This document shows positions 15,989 to 51,689 of a DNA stretch of 64,000 bases, in pieces. The notes beneath the pieces are model-generated. The model did no database searches. It was given only the letters and a program-made list of their open reading frames with translations, and was not told where the DNA came from. This DNA is from Stomoxys calcitrans. Taxonomy: Eukaryota; Arthropoda; Insecta; Diptera; Muscidae. Both the position numbers and the translations under genes were made by a program. The stretch's first letter is position 1. Every line of letters starts with the position of its first letter. Location: contig NC_081555.1 in the NCBI RefSeq assembly GCF_963082655.1, forward strand, positions 94,442,914 to 94,506,913, given 5' to 3'.

Positions 15989-16588
15989 AATCGTTGGTGT
16001 AAACTATACACAGCGCACATGAGTCATAAGCATCAAGCAGGTGTGCAGCATTACTGCGGCACTTCCCTGTTTAAAATAACTTTGAAATGTTGTTGTTCTT
16101 CTATGCTACACACTTGAGGTTTTCTAGCAGAAGCGGATAGTAAGAAGGGACAGAGCGATTTGCGGTTGCTGGGTGGGACTATCCTCAGATACCAGGTCTC
16201 AAATATTGACATTCTGGTTCTTCATTATTTGATAATCTTTTTGAGAGAAATTCATCGAAATTTTATGTTTCATGGCAAATATTTGGTGAAATTTTTATTT
16301 GTCAAACAATGTCGTCCATCCATAGTAAAGTGGTGTGAAACAAGGGACGTTTTTCTTTTTAGCCTACATCTATAGAACTCTTAAACCTTGAACACATTCG
16401 TGTGACCAATGACCTGTTATAACCCCTTCAAAAATCGATAGCAATCATCCGTCTAATGATTATAATAATTATTGACTTCGATATCTCAAAAAAAAAGGGA
16501 AATAAAAACACAATGTGTAATAAATTCAAATGATGATATTGTGAATTGTGGGAGCGCTCAAACAACAGCTCTTTATCTGGCAGACCTC
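15989..16588. other. Upstream region of the first protease homologue
   Basis: No repeat family recognised except the tail of the preceding element. Short ORFs here lack features. The last part is promoter sequence for the gene at 16629. Confidence 0.5.
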
Positions 16589-16625
16589 TATATATAAAGA
16601 AGCTTTTTTTGACACAACTCAATCA
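16589..16625 (+). promoter_or_regulatory. TATA box and initiator of serine protease homologue 1
   Basis: TATATATAAAG at 16589-16599 lies about 30 bp before an arthropod-like initiator, CTCAATC (start near A16621). This leaves a leader of only about 8 nt before the ATG at 16629. The longer ORF beginning at 16548 would place codons upstream of the TATA box, so that start is unlikely. Confidence 0.7.
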
Positions 16626-16628
16626 AAA

Positions 16629-17453
16629 ATGTTAGGTTTCGGTAGTGTGTTGGTCATTTGCCTGCTGCTGGTTAAGGGATCTTCGGCTGGAGAGGCCCCT
16701 TCCACGCATAAACGTTCTGATCCGAGGCGCATTGGTATTGGTGAATACACCAAAATCGAATGCGCTCCCTTTATTGTGTCCATCCAACGAGACGGTTATC
16801 ACTTCTGCAGTGGTTCCCTAATCGCCCCAAACTATGTGGTCACCGCTGGCGTTTGTGTATTTGGTCAAAACACCAAGAACCTTATGATACGAGCCGGTTC
16901 TTCTTGCACCAAAAACGGTGGACAATTGGTGCCGGTTAAGGACTACCTAATCAATCACAACTTTAATCCTATAACTAAACGAGGTGACATTGCCGTCATA
17001 TTGCTGAAACACGCTGTGGTCATAAACGGTGTTACCACACGGACCATCGGCAGACCACAGAGACTTCAATTGCCCACAAGTTGTGGCGGCGGCTATATAT
17101 ATGGCTGGGAACAAATGCGAACGGCAGGATTTCTGCCCAATACTCGACTGAAGAGGGCGCCGGTTTTGATTGGTCGTCAACTGCCATGTGGTACGGCATA
17201 CCGCCACAATGAGTGCTCAATACATGCTGGAAATCTGTGTGCCGTAACCCACAATTTTAATTCTTGCGTTGGTGATATTGGCAGTCCAGTGGTAAGGAAA
17301 AATCTGATTGTTGCCGTTGTTTCCTGGTGCAGAGGCTGTGCTCAGATTCCACTGCCATGCGTGCTTTCATCAATGTCCTATTTCGATGCATTTATCACCA
17401 ACGCAACAAGAATCTTAAACGACGAATTGAACAGAGTTTGTCCGAAACCCTAA
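16629..17453 (+). CDS. Secreted serine protease homologue (inactive, trypsin fold)
   Basis: 274 aa, single exon. Residues 1-20 are a signal peptide (MLGFGSVLVICLLLVKGSSA). A chymotrypsin-family S1 domain follows from about residue 35 (IGIGEY in place of IVGG). The Asp of the triad is kept (D120, GDIAVILL). The His site VVTAxxC reads AGVC (V75), and the Ser site GDSGGP reads GDIGSP (I217, and S for the second G). The S1-pocket Asp before SC is Asn211. The C60-C76 disulfide pair is retained. It should not cleave peptides; such homologues act as binding or regulatory proteins in insects, often in gut, saliva, reproduction or immunity, but the role here is unknown. The nearest relative in the window is 23881-24705. 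AATAAA follows at 17628. Confidence 0.9.
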   Translation: MLGFGSVLVICLLLVKGSSAGEAPSTHKRSDPRRIGIGEYTKIECAPFIVSIQRDGYHFCSGSLIAPNYVVTAGVCVFGQNTKNLMIRAGSSCTKNGGQLVPVKDYLINHNFNPITKRGDIAVILLKHAVVINGVTTRTIGRPQRLQLPTSCGGGYIYGWEQMRTAGFLPNTRLKRAPVLIGRQLPCGTAYRHNECSIHAGNLCAVTHNFNSCVGDIGSPVVRKNLIVAVVSWCRGCAQIPLPCVLSSMSYFDAFITNATRILNDELNRVCPKP

Positions 17454-23880: not shown

Positions 23881-24705
23881 TTACTTTGGCGTTGTTAACA
23901 GATTATGTGAAGCACATATAATATATTTATGATATTCTATCACACTCGTGTATATTCCTGGATATATTTCCTCAGCACAGCCACGAGCCCAAGAAAAGAG
24001 ACCAACCAAGCTGCCCTGAAACATTGCCGGACTTCCCCTATCCATTTGACATGAGTCCTGGTTGCGAGCTCTACCACAGAATACACCAATTTTCAGTCCA
24101 TCGTTGGTGTAACCATAAAAGCTGCTTGTGCACGCTTTAAGATTGAGATACCTAATGGTCGCCTGTCTCAAGTCAGTGTTGTAGAGTGCTAGGCCATCCA
24201 TTGAGGAGCCGTATCCCACCACCCTTCCAGTTTCATTATTGCTTGGCTCAAATTTGCCTATATGGGCTCGGCTGACTCTGTGGCCATCGAGAACCAGCGG
24301 TGATTTGAGCTTTAACAGGGCAATATCATGGCGCAGAGTTACTGCATCGAAGCAATCGTGAATTTTTATCACAGCCACTTTTATCAGCTGACCTCCGGTC
24401 TTGTGGCAAGTTGAGCCGGCACGTATTTGAAGATTTGAAGCTGCTCTGCCCACGACCACACTGGCCGCAGTCAAAATTACATATTTGTTGTAAATGACGC
24501 CGGAGCCAATGTGGGTTCCCCTATTGGTTGCTGCCAAATCAATCAACTGTATGGAAACCTCAAAGGGAAAGTCCTCTATGGCAGCATAACGGCCTCCATT
24601 TAGACATTTTGGTACAAAAGGCACTGAACCATCCGGAATGCCTGTTGATGTTGCACCCACAGACAGACAAATGCTGCCGATTAGTAACACAAAAGCTTTT
24701 AGCAT
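23881..24705 (-). CDS. Secreted serine protease homologue (inactive, trypsin fold)
   Basis: 274 aa, single exon, minus strand. Signal peptide MLKAFVLLIGSICLSVGA. The S1-like domain begins about residue 38. The His site reads VILTAASVVVG (S82 for His, V83 for the usual Cys), and the partner Cys is also gone (I66), so the Cys42-Cys58 disulfide was lost as a pair. D127 (RHDIALLKL) is kept. The Ser site reads CQMDRGSP (R223 for Ser, M221 and S225 for the Gly positions). The pocket Asp before SC remains (D217). It shares AGSxCxKxGGQL and GSP with the homologue at 16629, so the two are paralogues. It cannot be a working protease by the family's known mechanism; any function would be as a binding or decoy protein. 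Confidence 0.9.
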   Translation of the reverse strand: MLKAFVLLIGSICLSVGATSTGIPDGSVPFVPKCLNGGRYAAIEDFPFEVSIQLIDLAATNRGTHIGSGVIYNKYVILTAASVVVGRAASNLQIRAGSTCHKTGGQLIKVAVIKIHDCFDAVTLRHDIALLKLKSPLVLDGHRVSRAHIGKFEPSNNETGRVVGYGSSMDGLALYNTDLRQATIRYLNLKACTSSFYGYTNDGLKIGVFCGRARNQDSCQMDRGSPAMFQGSLVGLFSWARGCAEEIYPGIYTSVIEYHKYIICASHNLLTTPK

Positions 24706-24763
24706 TTTTGCTCAAAACACAACAGCAAGAAATTTGGTACAATGTGAAGCCCAGTGCTTCGTG

Positions 24764-46548: not shown

Positions 46549-48118
46549 AATAGATGCCTTGTTTTCAAATAACCATTTACGAATGATTGCGATGCGCCAC
46601 ATTTACCATAATTATTCGACTCATACGCGAATAGTCATATTTCAATCAGTTTATATCAATCACAAATACCATGAACATGACATAACAATGCTTTCAAACT
46701 CAACATGACTTCAGCACAAAACAAAAAAAAAAAAAAAGAAACGAACATCCTTTCATAACGAAAATAACGGAAATAAGCAGAGTATAAACCAAGTCATATT
46801 CATAACAATCATGCGTTATGATGGCCAAATGGATTCATATCAATCATACGTCGCCACGAAAAACACAAGGTAATAAAGCCATTTTAAAGGATTTTTTTTT
46901 TTTTTTTAAATGGGCTTTCCACTGCGGCCATATTACCTAAATTGGCCATTTGTGAGTCCCGCATGTTTGCCAATACAACATAATGACGGACGAAACAATT
47001 GCCATCAATCATACGTTACCATGAGCTTTCGTTTTCGAAAGCAATTCCTCACCCTGCTACGGTAATCTGGCAAAAGCGCAAAAAACATTTCTAGAACACA
47101 AAAAGCAAACTTGACTTGACTGAGAAGTGCCAGCAGGAACAGCGAATACAATATCCATAATGTAGCCCATAAAGAGTTGAAATTTTTTGTGTTTTTGTTA
47201 CCTGCATTTGGGAGTCGAGAAGGAAAAATTTAAATTTTAAATATTGTCCTTATGAAATGCTTTCAAAATGTAGTCTCATAAAATAAAAGTTCACTTTTTG
47301 CGGTGTTTTTTTCTTTCTTGTGCAATGGCATCGTTTTCGCATAAACAAGAAACATTTGAGACTTTTCTGCTGAAATCATTTGCATTTCTTATTTGAATGG
47401 GCTTATGCTAATGGAGCGTAAAAACAAAAGTAAGGGAAGCGAAACTGAGCAAAGCCAAGATTTGGCGGTGGTGATGGTGGTGGTGGTGGTTGGTGTTGGA
47501 GCAAAGGTGAAAGTTGAAATATCGAGCATTTGAATTTTTCTGTAACATTCTGCTCGATTGGCTATAAGGTTGTAGACTTGTGTATTTACCACCAAGCAAT
47601 GTAATGAAATTTTCTTAAAAGCCATAAATTGAAAGTGCTTATTTCACGTGTTTGTAAGTTGCCAGCCATTAAATTTAATGATTTTTCTTCTCTTCTAAAT
47701 GTATGGCAAAAAGCATTTGTTTTCCTTTTATAACAAACAACTAAGTTTTCAAATCCTTTTGCTCTCCCAATTGGCCAGTTTTAAGTCCTTAGGTTTATGC
47801 TTTGGTGTTCGTTTGGTGCATTTCTCAAAGAGTATAAATCTCTAATCCAGTGCTAAATAGACTTCTTACATGCCAATTAAAGGTTTAGAAAATCTTTTCC
47901 GTTTTTTTTTTGGAAAAGGATTACAATACAGAGGGATTATGCTGGTATAAAAGAAATGGCAACATGGCAAAAATCCGCTTAAACTCAAGTCCTTGCAATG
48001 TCTTTCTTTTTTTGTTTGTCATTACTCATTAATTAAACCTAACATGGCACTTTGAAATAAAATTAATCATATGTTTGATGTAAAGTAAAATGCTAAAATG
48101 AAATTTAATTGAAATCAA
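46549..48118. other. Gene-free AT-rich sequence
   Basis: No gene family recognised. A GGT-rich run at 47465-47495 encodes only low-complexity residues in short ORFs. Confidence 0.5.
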
Positions 48119-48119
48119 G

Positions 48120-48184
48120 GGGCGTGCTGCAATGATCGCGATTTCGGCCTTTGCCAGGGGCCTCGTCAGACTGTTATGCCACCC
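48120..48184 (-). ncRNA. Type I hammerhead ribozyme
   Basis: On the minus strand every element of the hammerhead fold is present. Stem I 5' side: GGGUGGC, internal loop AUAA, CAGU. Core CUGACGA at 48169-48163. Stem II: GGCC with a 9-nt loop, then GGCC. GAAA at 48145-48142. Stem III is the minimal palindrome AUCGCGAU (48142-48135). The AUC cleavage triplet has C17 at 48134. Stem I 3' side: AUUG, CA, GC, bulged A, CGCCC. Pairing CAGU/AUUG (one G-U) and GGGUGGC/GC(A)CGCCC holds without forcing. A tiny stem III, a stem I internal loop and a loop-II partner are the known features of animal-repeat hammerheads. Whether it is transcribed or cleaves is not shown. Confidence 0.8.
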
Positions 48185-48288
48185 AAAAGATTACATGCTT
48201 CCACCTATCCACTAATTAGTGAGCAGTGCAATGGTAGAAGCATGCCATCTGAATGAAATGTTGGGTCTTGTTATTCAACCTTTTCTTA

Positions 48289-48449
48289 TAGCGCAGTAAG
48301 ACTCAGTTAAATTCTAACAGCCAACATCTCTTCAAAGAGACATCGAACATCAACAACACACACAAAGCTAAAGACTTGTGTTGTTGATGTTCGATGTCTC
48401 TTTGAAGAGATGTTGGCTGTTAGAATTTAACTTTGTCTTACTGCGCTAA
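48289..48449. repeat. Perfect fold-back hairpin with ~72-bp arms
   Basis: TAGCGCAGTAAGAC...CATCAACAACACA (48289-48360) is repeated inverted at 48377-48449 around a loop of about 16 bp. Arms are almost identical, with one short mismatch (TCA versus AAA near 48303/48433). It lies 100 bp from the hammerhead and adjoins the repeat block beginning at 48451. Confidence 0.9.
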
Positions 48450-48450
48450 T

Positions 48451-50160
48451 TTTCAGAAACACCACATCTCAGAGATGGGTGGTGTGATTTAAGCGAAATT
48501 GTGTGTGCTCTCATATAAAACCCTTAAAATAAAAATTTGGTATCCAAAATTTCGGATGGGGTACCTAGGGGGGCTGCCCCACCCTAAAACCTGCTAAACA
48601 TATATTTACACCAATCACGACAATATGGAACTCAAATGAAAGGTATTTAAGATAAGAAAACGTATCTGATATCCAATTGTCCGACCAAGTGCTAGGAGGA
48701 CCACCCCAAGCCCTTAAAACACCCTTAAATCGGACATATTTACCGACCATGGCAATATGGGACTCAAATGAAAGGTATTTGCGAGTATAATACGAATCTG
48801 ATATCCAAATGTGGGACCACGTTTCTGGGGGTCCAGCCCTTACCCAAAACACCTCCCAAACTGGACTTCTTTACTGACCATGGGAATATGGGGCTTAAAT
48901 AAAATGTATTTGAATGTAGAATACGAATATGATATCCAAATATGGGACCAAGTGTTTGGGCGGCCACCTCTCACCAAAAACATGCCCCAAAGGGGACAAA
49001 TTTACGACCATAACAATATGGGGCTCAAATGAAAGGTCTTTGGGAGTAAAGCACGACTTTGATATCAATATTCGGGAAAAATTTCTATGGGGCCACCCAA
49101 ATAGTAAGTATTTTCTGACTATTGCAATATGAGGCTCAAATAAGAGGGTTTTTGAGTATAACACGATTCAGATATATATTTTTAATGCCAACTCACTGAG
49201 TGACCGACCCATCCCCCAAAACACGCCCTTAGCCGGTCATGTTTGCCGACTATGGAAATATGGGGCTCAAATTAAAGGTATGTGGGAGTAGACCACATAT
49301 CTGATATCAACATTAGGGGCCAACTGTCTAGCGGACATTTCACCACCATAACTCACCAAAACAATTTGGGTCTTAAAGAGAGTGGAACAAAATATTCATA
49401 GTTTTTAGGGCCAATACCCGAAACCGGACATATTTGCTGACTTTTGCAATAAGGAGTTTAAATGAGATTAGAAAACAAATTTTTTATCCAATTTTGAGGG
49501 CAATGGCAATATGGGGTTCAAATAAATGATATATAGATATATGAGAATAGAGCACGTTGCTGATATATTTTCCGGGCTTAGTGTTTGGGGGACCAGCCCA
49601 ATCCCCAAAACATCCCTTAATCGGGCATATTTACCGACCATGTCAGTGTGGAGCTTAAATGAAAGCAGTTGGGGGGTAGAGCAAGAATTGATACCCATTT
49701 TAGGGACCAATTTTCCGGAGGTCTACCCCCTTTCCCAAAATATCCCAAAAACAGCAATTTTTTACTGACCATCGCACTATGGGACTCAAATAAAGGTATT
49801 TGGGAGTAGAATACGAATTTGATATCTAAATGTAGGACCATGTATTTAGGGCATAACCCCTTCTCCAAAACACCCTGAAAAGGGTAAAAATTTTTCGACC
49901 ATGCCAAATGTGGCTCAAATGAAAGGTATTTGAGATTAGAAAACGAATTTGATAACCTATTTTGGGGCCATGTGTTTGGGGGACGCCGAATCGTGTAAAC
50001 TACCCTAAACCAATGGCAATATGGGGTTTAAATAAATGGCATTTGAGAGAAGAGCACAATGCCGATATTTTTTCAGGGCCAAGTATCTGGGGGACTACCT
50101 CTCCCCAGAAAACACCACTAAATCAGGGCTGAAGTAAAGTATTTTAAGAATGGAGTACAC
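48451..50160. repeat. Dispersed 'CAATATGGGGCTCAAATG' tandem family
   Basis: About thirteen units of ~130 bp with the same vocabulary and order as 21430-23400, including the left flank TTTTCAGAAACACCACATCT and GGATGGGGTACCTAGG. Non-coding. Bounded on both sides by hammerhead-bearing sequences. Confidence 0.75.
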
Positions 50161-50375
50161 CTTAGATCTAAACTTAAATTCGTAGACCAATAAAAATCAT
50201 ATGGGATTCGGGCAATGGCACTTATGTTGTTAAATTGTTAGTCAAGCGATATACTATTTTCGTAGTATGGTATTTCACTAAAAGCTCTTTAATTGCCGAT
50301 AATAAATATTCCAAGGAAACTTTTGTTCCATATAAAGTAAAAGAATGCGCAGCGGAGCGGGCCAGGGTCAGCTGG

Positions 50376-50535
50376 TCTGCTATAAAAATAAAATTAAGTG
50401 GCATAACATCCTGATGAGGCCACAAACGTGGCCGAAATCGCGCTAATTGTATGAGGGCAAGCTACAATTAGCGCGATTTCGGTCACGTTTGTGGCCTCAT
50501 CAGGATGTTATGCCACTTAATTTCATTTTTATAGC
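50376..50535. ncRNA. Hammerhead-core palindrome, copy 1
   Basis: Plus strand: AAGTGGCATAACATC, core CTGATGA at 50411, stem II GGCCAC-AAAC-GTGGCC, then GAAA, then ATCGCGCTAATTGTA. After an 11-nt loop the whole block returns inverted, so a hammerhead core also sits on the minus strand. Flank GTGGCATAACA is shared with the ribozyme at 48120-48184. Short stem I pairing next to the core is poor (AUUG against CAUC), so a simple long hairpin is the likelier fold. Confidence 0.6.
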
Positions 50536-50550
50536 AGACTAGCTGACTCT

Positions 50551-50710
50551 GCTATAAAAATAAAATTAAGTGGCATAACATCCTGATGAGGCCACAAACG
50601 TGGCCGAAATCGCGCTAATTGTATGAGGGCAAGCTACAATTAGCGCGATTTCGGCCACGTTTGTGGCCTCATCAGGATGTTATGCAACTTTATTTTATTT
50701 TTATAGCAGA
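50551..50710. ncRNA. Hammerhead-core palindrome, copy 2
   Basis: Repeats copy 1 at a 172-bp period: CTGATGAG at 50583, GGCCAC-AAAC-GTGGCC stem, GAAA, loop TGAGGGCAAGC, then the inverted half. Differences are few (for example TCACG versus CCACG in the right half). It ends at ACTAGCTGACCCGGGC of the right outer arm. Confidence 0.6.
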
Positions 50711-50884
50711 CTAGCTGACCCGGGCCTGCTCCGCTGCGCATTCTTACTTTATATGTATGGAACAAAAGTTTCCTTGGAATATTTATTTTCGACAATTAAA
50801 GAGCTTTTAGTGAAATACCATGCTACGAAAATAGTATATCGCTTGACTAACAATTTAACAAAATAAGTGCCTTTGTCCGAATTC

Positions 50885-51689
50885 AATGTTTTTTTTTTTT
50901 TTTGTGAGGTTATCAGAAGATTATAAAAGAAGAAAAATTATTGTCCAAGCAAGAATAAACTTGGTATCTTTCGAATCCATCATACGCTATGAAAGTTATA
51001 AATATATGCGAGCATAACTCAGAGGGAAATAATACAGAATTTAAAAGTAATTACTAAGCATGTTATACTTATCCTATTCCATTCGAAATCGAGTTACCGC
51101 CTCGATTTAATATGAATTTTTCTTTTAAGCTACAAATATCTGCGCATATTATAAATGCAATGTTATTGTGTACATACCTGAAAAATAAAAAAAAAAACTA
51201 TAATTAGTTTTAGTCCAAAATTCAAAATATTCTCAAGACAAATTTAAAATGCTCAAACAACATTAAAATAGGAAACACAAAATGAACCAACCATGCATAG
51301 TTTGAAAATCTGTTGAAAAGGTTAAAAAAGTTAGTTAATTTCAATCTGAAAATAAAAAGCAATATTAGTTTTAAAATAAAATATAAATTAATAATTAATT
51401 GATAAAATAAAAATCAAAAGCTGTTTTAACGATTTTCGCGGATTTAAGAGACTGCAATTCAATATTGTCACAATAAAGTACAAAAAAATCAAGCGGATAA
51501 TTTTGATGCAGGCATATCCTACTCCAGAAACAAGCAATGAACTCTGGCAACACACAGTGTGGTTGGCATATGGAAAACAAAACATTTTTCCAGCTAATCG
51601 AATTAAATTGTGGCGCCAAGGAGGTCATTGAAAAACCAATTCCCGATTATGGTATTGGCAATAGACAAACTAGCCATAATGTGACCAAA
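50885..51689. other. Gene-free AT-rich sequence
   Basis: Poly-T and poly-A runs, no coding features. The short ORFs at 51388-51628 are low-complexity. Confidence 0.5.

Follow-up and report, generated by a model that had tools for sequence, protein, structure and literature searches.

The 64,000-nt stretch of Stomoxys calcitrans DNA analysed here (the window) carries on its minus strand a minimal type I hammerhead ribozyme motif within a truncated, folded-back copy of a dispersed repeat, and a second array with diverged hammerhead-like cores farther along (Table 1). Two trypsin-family serine protease genes are also present in the window, at 16545-17453 on the plus strand and at 23881-24711 on the minus strand, the product of the latter matching a stable-fly protein at 99% identity with 84% covered. 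The stretch 48595-49982, beside the element copy, is a tandem array in which diverged repeats recur about every 131 nt.

Table 1. Features of the hammerhead-bearing repeat copy and of the second array, in window coordinates.
Feature	Position	Strand	Basis
Minimal type I hammerhead ribozyme motif, from one strand of outer stem I to the other	48121..48183	-	sequence
Catalytic core CUGACGA (C3-A9)	48163..48169	-	sequence; near-invariant in copies except N7
GAAA (G12-A15.1)	48142..48145	-	sequence; conserved in copies
Stem II GGCC/GGCC, 48162-48159 with 48149-48146; 9-nt loop CCUGGCAAA	48146..48162	-	sequence
Stem III palindrome AUCGCGAU, 8 bp possible between two copies	48135..48142	-	sequence
Predicted cleavage site, C17/A1.1, between C48134 and A48133	48133..48134	-	hammerhead rule
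Inner stem I	48173-48170 with 48133-48130	-	sequence
Outer stem I	48183-48178 with 48127-48126 and 48124-48121	-	sequence
Stem I internal loop AUAA/CA and single-A bulge at 48125, before outer stem I		-	sequence
Element copy with the motif, truncated on its 5' side, which is folded back, and cut off on its 3' side after CTTGAT	48114..48448	-	similarity to other copies
Fold-back at 5' end of copy: arms 48289-48360 and 48377-48448, 72 nt, 97% complementary	48289..48448
Hairpin CATGCTTCTACC...GGTGGAAGCATG directly upstream of the ribozyme, in many copies	48194..48244	-	sequences; predicted fold of the L041 counterpart
Palindromic units of 172 nt, two in number, holding four diverged cores of hammerhead-like sequence	50376..50719	both	family model
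Diverged cores	50411-50437, 50583-50609	+	family model, 26-36 bits
Diverged cores	50477-50503, 50649-50675	-	family model, 26-36 bits

All the parts named in a sequence-only reading of the window, namely CUGACGA, GAAA, a 4-bp stem II, a palindromic stem III, AUC and a looped and bulged stem I, lie on the minus strand, and the genome is that of an insect, as had been supposed. The core has the form CUGANGA...GAAA with AUC as the NUH cleavage triplet, and pairing by sequence gives three helices with the ends open in stem I, stem III only as a palindrome or in a dimer, which bears out both the type I topology and the minimal, palindromic nature of stem III. The cleavage position is a prediction from the general hammerhead rule. 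A descriptor comprising the core, the 4-bp stem II, GAAA, a self-pairing stem III, UH and a 4-bp stem I had a single match in the window, at the motif itself, and 20 matches in 5518 order-1 simulated windows, in agreement with the view that such an arrangement is unlikely by chance; a family model (R1) built from the copies, the window motif included, gave 96.5 bits on it. Judged by its sequence, the hammerhead motif in the window is real and of the known minimal type I.

Regarding stem III, the reading of the ribozyme as complete stands for the palindrome but not for an intramolecular helix beyond about 2 bp, to which self-closure of a loopless 8-nt palindrome within one molecule is limited. 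The predicted folds of the monomer are -7.4 kcal/mol for the hammerhead with a 2-bp stem III and -10.7 without stem III, with a minimum of -19.1 that is not the hammerhead. Misfolding of the monomer could be expected of a stem III palindrome that has no loop and would form its pairs between two ribozymes. The ribozyme probably acts as a dimer.

At curated gathering thresholds no Rfam family was found, either in the window or in the 20 copy-bearing loci searched, and the hammerhead covariance search that had been proposed as a check ended far below threshold, the best score on the motif being 13.4 bits, to RF00008 (type III model), against a cut-off of 48.5. Permissive Rfam searches gave microRNA-family matches on fold-backs, in the window copy at 48291-48446, because of the fold-back arms listed in Table 1, and a pattern scan of viral contigs gave no match. 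The minimal type I motif escapes the Rfam hammerhead models applied here, and annotation relying on those models would overlook it.

The sequence-only reading described one motif and overlooked the four related cores 2.2 kb away. These lie in a long inverted repeat (50189-50899, with arms 50189-50332 and 50756-50899 that are 92% complementary), and their relatives elsewhere in the genome, in a search that skips very common words, are limited to locus L085, which is 71-73% identical to the repeat unit described below on both sides of its ribozyme. In the aligned rows of the array and L085 the catalytic core is intact and stems I and III are partly broken. The possibility that the second array represents a high-copy ribozyme family was rejected, only local copies and L085 having been found and two of the stems being partly broken; from their sequences, the four cores look like old relatives caught in a palindrome.

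Copies of the motif and conservation of the catalytic core

Genome searches with the ribozyme stretch and with a neighbouring stretch each listed at least 42 matches (620 and 577 first-look candidates, respectively, 40 scored in each case), so that the proposed search for genome-wide copies revealed a dispersed repeat, the true copy number of which may be in the hundreds. A first sample comprised 45 full ribozyme-region copies from 36 fetched loci, with 5 shorter matches left out. Direct dimers were present in two loci, L027 and L041, with a unit of exactly 511 nt, a GC content of 0.386 and 0.384, and stops in all three forward frames. Same-strand full copies occurred in 2/36 loci and full copies on both strands in 7/36, and the palindrome AUCGCGAU was exact in 38/45 and 33/45 copies of two overlapping samples.

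Conservation was counted over 11 catalytic positions (C3, U4, G5, A6, G8, A9, G12, A13, A14, A15.1 and U16.1). With all rows of the first sample kept (45 copies and the window), 2/506 core cells were changed against 109/2575 in the other columns (column permutation, p 1.4e-4); on 44 rows (alignment A1), which leave out the minus-strand copy of L024, which is identical to its partner, and the plus-strand copy of L044, in which A13 is changed, the counts were 1/484 and 99/2464 (p 6e-5). The core changes affected A13 in one of 45 copies (L044, plus strand) and A14 in one of 45 (L039). Since the copies of the first sample had been found by ribozyme similarity, a further sample was drawn using a query outside the ribozyme, giving 45 distinct rows in 33 loci (L046-L080); four of the 42 listed matches are missing from it, C3:95862014 and C1:35183965 belonging to the first sample and C3:81800894 and C2:223019914 lying outside both samples. 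Three of these 45 rows were without the ribozyme, nine had it in part and 33 in full or nearly so. All 42 ribozyme-bearing rows together had 1/432 core cells changed (and one deleted) against 98/2111 in the rest (and nine deleted), while the 33 nearly full rows had 1/363 against 78/1384 (permutation p 1.4e-4) and the 18 of these that are absent from the first sample 1/198 against 53/754 (permutation p 0.0017). The free core position N7 varied in 7/46 rows of the first sample and 9/33 of the second. This conservation of the catalytic core fits the pattern expected from selection on a hammerhead, and falls short of proof of cleavage.

Regarding the helices, 95.5% of stem cells were paired in 42 distinct copies against 22-52% when the pairing was slid, a comparison that is favourable as the structure was derived from these same sequences. 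Stem II was paired in 92.9% of cells, its pair 10.2-11.2 being broken in 8/42 distinct rows. Compensatory changes, which had been proposed as a check on the ribozyme, did not exceed chance: there were 0 pairs in the 42 distinct close copies, and a set of 9 rows that took in diverged relatives gave two double changes, both in L085, a number reached by 153/500 shuffles.

Ends of the copies and Penelope-like elements in the same genome

The ends of copies were surveyed in both samples pooled, with repeats removed, which left 77 rows, 74 with a 3' end and three without. Measured downstream of the cleavage site, 33/74 of the 3' ends fell at 129-147 nt and 23/74 at 171-178 nt, the remainder being at 95-105 nt (6/74), elsewhere below 300 nt (seven) or above 300 nt (five, dimers among these). 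This clustering was already present in the first sample, and the second is hardly able to reveal 3' ends at less than about 130 nt because its query stops there; 5' starts were spread over the unit in the 77 non-redundant rows. The 20-nt 3' flanks at the two main end regions were 80.3% A+T compared with 63.4% in random 20-mers of the loci, a figure based on 54 distinct flanks that possibly include part of the element where the local alignment stopped early. Short repeats at both flanks were slightly in excess (8/67 against 3.1% in the control), and target-site duplications are thus weakly seen. The combination of grouped 3' ends, uneven 5' ends and targets rich in A+T is in keeping with target-primed reverse transcription. 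The first 3' end site (129-147) contains an AC-rich stretch, AACCAACAACAAAA, which recalls the AC-rich initiation stem loop of a lizard Penelope-like element (PLE), whose enzyme, in the accessible part of the report, starts copying internally in that stem loop and uses A+T-rich targets (PMC11167929).

A search for an excess of 5' ends at the cleavage site gave none, 1/45 flank-selected copies (L077) starting there. As copies mostly cross the ribozyme junction, the RNA that was copied was uncut or circular, not cut and linear; cleaved linear RNA as template has left almost no trace, and uncut and circular RNA are indistinguishable in these data.

A protein search for the Penelope-type reverse transcriptase (RT) gave at least 107 scored matches among 836 candidates, many with open frames of 856-858 aa. 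The label Penelope-type rests on the probe, taken to be of that type, on Pfam domains recorded for the proteins it matched and on a weak GIY-YIG match. The places include C3:106391450-106398426, C4:72392720-72402019 and about 100 others, L086 and L087 being PLE stretches, with tandem spacings of 2845 or 2929-2930 nt and opposite-strand pairs too. The Pfam GIY-YIG model matched one place only in the genome, resembling a host gene that we presume to be SLX1, and scored 20.5 bits on the PLE frame of L086, below the cut-off of 22.6; the absence of PLEs that the GIY-YIG search would suggest was discarded as misleading in view of the scored RT matches.

Merging neighbouring matches of both repeat searches gave 66 ribozyme places, and none of these is found within 90 kb of any of the 107 RT matches that were scored among the 836 candidates; linked RT and GIY-YIG open reading frames were not found, the 511-nt unit having no open frame and no scored PLE RT within 90 kb. 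The co-resident PLE is therefore a candidate mover in trans and probably not the carrier. For the earlier suggestion of a retroelement RNA, many copies, two 511-nt dimers and retrotransposon-like ends speak in favour; the distances lend no support to a carrier that is itself Penelope-like.

By eye, the inter-ORF stretch of a 2929-nt PLE at L087:141-187 (plus strand) has the sequence CTGATGA-A-GTTGG...CCAAC-GAAA-CGTC. It resembles a minimal hammerhead in which the palindrome ACGU would form stem III and stem II is preceded by an additional A. The family model of the 511-nt element scored 3.9 bits on L086 and 2.6 bits on L087, in places other than this motif. The G form of the 16-mer ATTTCATTCGGAGGGC is common to the 2929-nt PLE and 3/45 copies of the repeat, with the A form in 16/45 and neither in 26/45, and the best local score between this PLE and the 511-nt unit was equalled or exceeded by 2/300 shuffles. 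The 2845-nt PLE family has a diverged look-alike only. At L086:637-672 (plus strand), in the 2845-nt PLE, there is a similar hairpin, CTTGAAAAT-GGTAGAC-GGA-GTCTACC-GAAATATTGG, in which C3 and G8 would read U and A, possibly as a paired exchange.

Relation to known hammerhead repeats

A short, non-coding, low-GC tandem repeat with a type I hammerhead, the description of a retrozyme, is present at L027 and L041. Like the metazoan non-LTR retrozymes as characterized in the available text of Cervera and de la Pena (2020; PMC7229834), which mentions in general terms that such repeats occur in insects, the stable-fly element is a non-coding, low-GC (38%) type I hammerhead repeat with many copies, direct dimers and presumed mobilisation in trans. 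It differs from them in its unit of 511 nt, where the RNAs of animal retrozymes have units of about 170-400 nt (PMC7229834), a usual size that is not strictly defining, and in the restriction of same-strand full copies to 2/36 loci, the other copies being single or inverted and mostly 5'-truncated. Abundant circular RNA belongs to the description of non-LTR retrozymes.

The minimal hammerheads of PLEs and Terminons have a very short or missing stem III and are presumed to work in dimeric form (Cervera and de la Pena, 2014; Lunse et al., 2017; both as cited in PMC7761336), and the stable-fly motif shares this stem III and the dimer expectation. The likeness extends to the motif read by eye in the stable-fly PLE, whereas the stable-fly carrier has neither an RT nor a GIY-YIG open reading frame, its stem I has an internal loop and a bulge, and its family model misses the PLE motif. 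Among Diptera, the Aedes aegypti repeat hammerheads resemble the present one by description, as an interspersed repeat with a palindromic stem III proposed to pair in dimers (Perreault et al., 2011; PMC3088659), while those of Musca domestica and other Diptera, although likewise genomic, are assigned to type III in the accessible part of PMC7936874, in contrast to type I here. In the literature searched there was no paper linking a hammerhead ribozyme with Stomoxys; a search on dipteran hammerheads and retrotransposons gave none on this element, by titles and the starts of abstracts, and one on self-cleaving ribozymes of Musca domestica gave PMC7936874 only. The stable-fly element, not found in the literature searched, belongs to a known kind and is non-LTR retrozyme-like.

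Proposed mode of propagation and alternative explanations

Taken together, the window motif is likely to be a minimal type I hammerhead in a truncated copy of a non-autonomous, non-coding, non-LTR retrozyme-like retrotransposon with a 511-nt unit. In the mechanism proposed for it, tandem transcripts would self-cleave at the predicted site between C48134 and A48133, two ribozymes being paired via their AUCGCGAU palindromes, and a host ligase would close the released 511-nt RNA into a circle, unless the transcript served directly without being cut. A+T-rich DNA would be nicked by a reverse transcriptase/endonuclease encoded by a PLE, and copying would begin inside the RNA in two preferred regions, at 129-147 nt and at 171-178 nt past the cleavage site; the enzyme would then copy across the ribozyme junction until fall-off or fold-back, which would yield truncated and inverted copies such as that in the window.

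Three readings compete with that of a retrozyme-like element. A non-catalytic, hammerhead-shaped relic, the core of which is kept for binding or priming of the reverse transcriptase, would agree with the predicted misfolding of the monomer, with compensatory changes no more frequent than by chance and with the near absence of 5' ends at the cleavage site, and the lizard PLE hammerhead, in the available text of PMC11167929, needed protein in order to cleave, and insertion in vitro could proceed without the hammerhead; the catalytic positions, however, are conserved where the free position N7 is not, and the palindrome that dimers need is exact in most copies of both samples, so that we regard a relic as unlikely. 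It is quite improbable that the repeat is a decayed piece of a PLE pseudo-LTR (pLTR) and no independent non-autonomous element. PLEs do carry such minimal hammerheads in their pLTRs (PMC7761336, as far as accessible), and the 2929-nt PLE has its own hammerhead-like motif, by eye, the 16-mer ATTTCATTCGGAGGGC in common with a few copies and a local score seldom matched by shuffles, but the tandem units of the repeat are 511 nt without an open frame against PLE spacings of 2845 and 2929-2930 nt, no ribozyme place lies within 90 kb of any of the 107 PLE matches (among 836 candidates), and the family model found nothing significant in L086 and L087, one stretch for each of two PLE families.

The folded-back window copy, the loci with full copies on both strands and the palindromic second array at 50.4-50.7 kb are features that a fold-back or MITE-type DNA transposon, with a hammerhead-like sequence by chance, would also have, yet the pattern of ends, clustered at 3' and scattered at 5', the direct dimers and the A+T-richness of the 3' flanks agree with reverse transcription, and both the chance rate given by the descriptor and the core kept intact even in diverged relatives weigh against coincidence; a DNA transposon is scarcely credible here.

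Regarding the enzyme that moves the retrozyme-like element, it is a tentative proposal, and on balance a doubtful one, that the 511-nt element parasitises the 2.93-kb PLE of S. calcitrans, whose template would be mimicked by a dimer-cleaved, closed RNA through its hammerhead, its AC-rich region and ATTTCATTCGGAGGGC, the circle being copied by the PLE enzyme. In the accessible part of PMC7761336, PLEs are proposed as likely movers of retrozymes, the mover enzyme of animal retrozymes and the role of their hammerheads are given as an open question, and no conserved motif is held to help in deducing the autonomous partner. If true, the parasite proposal would name such an autonomous partner of an animal retrozyme. 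The interest of the stable-fly element lies in its combination with PLEs in one genome: with long-ORF PLEs present and preferred starts of reverse transcription, direct tests become possible both of the partner hypothesis and of what self-cleavage is for.

Seven copies of the first sample end at position 100, and six of these, at L020, L023, L025, L034, L037 and L041, are joined at this unit position to one common other repeat (CAAGTAAAAGCG... or near). The six may descend from few events, and the shared junction suggests a composite repeat that spread as one.
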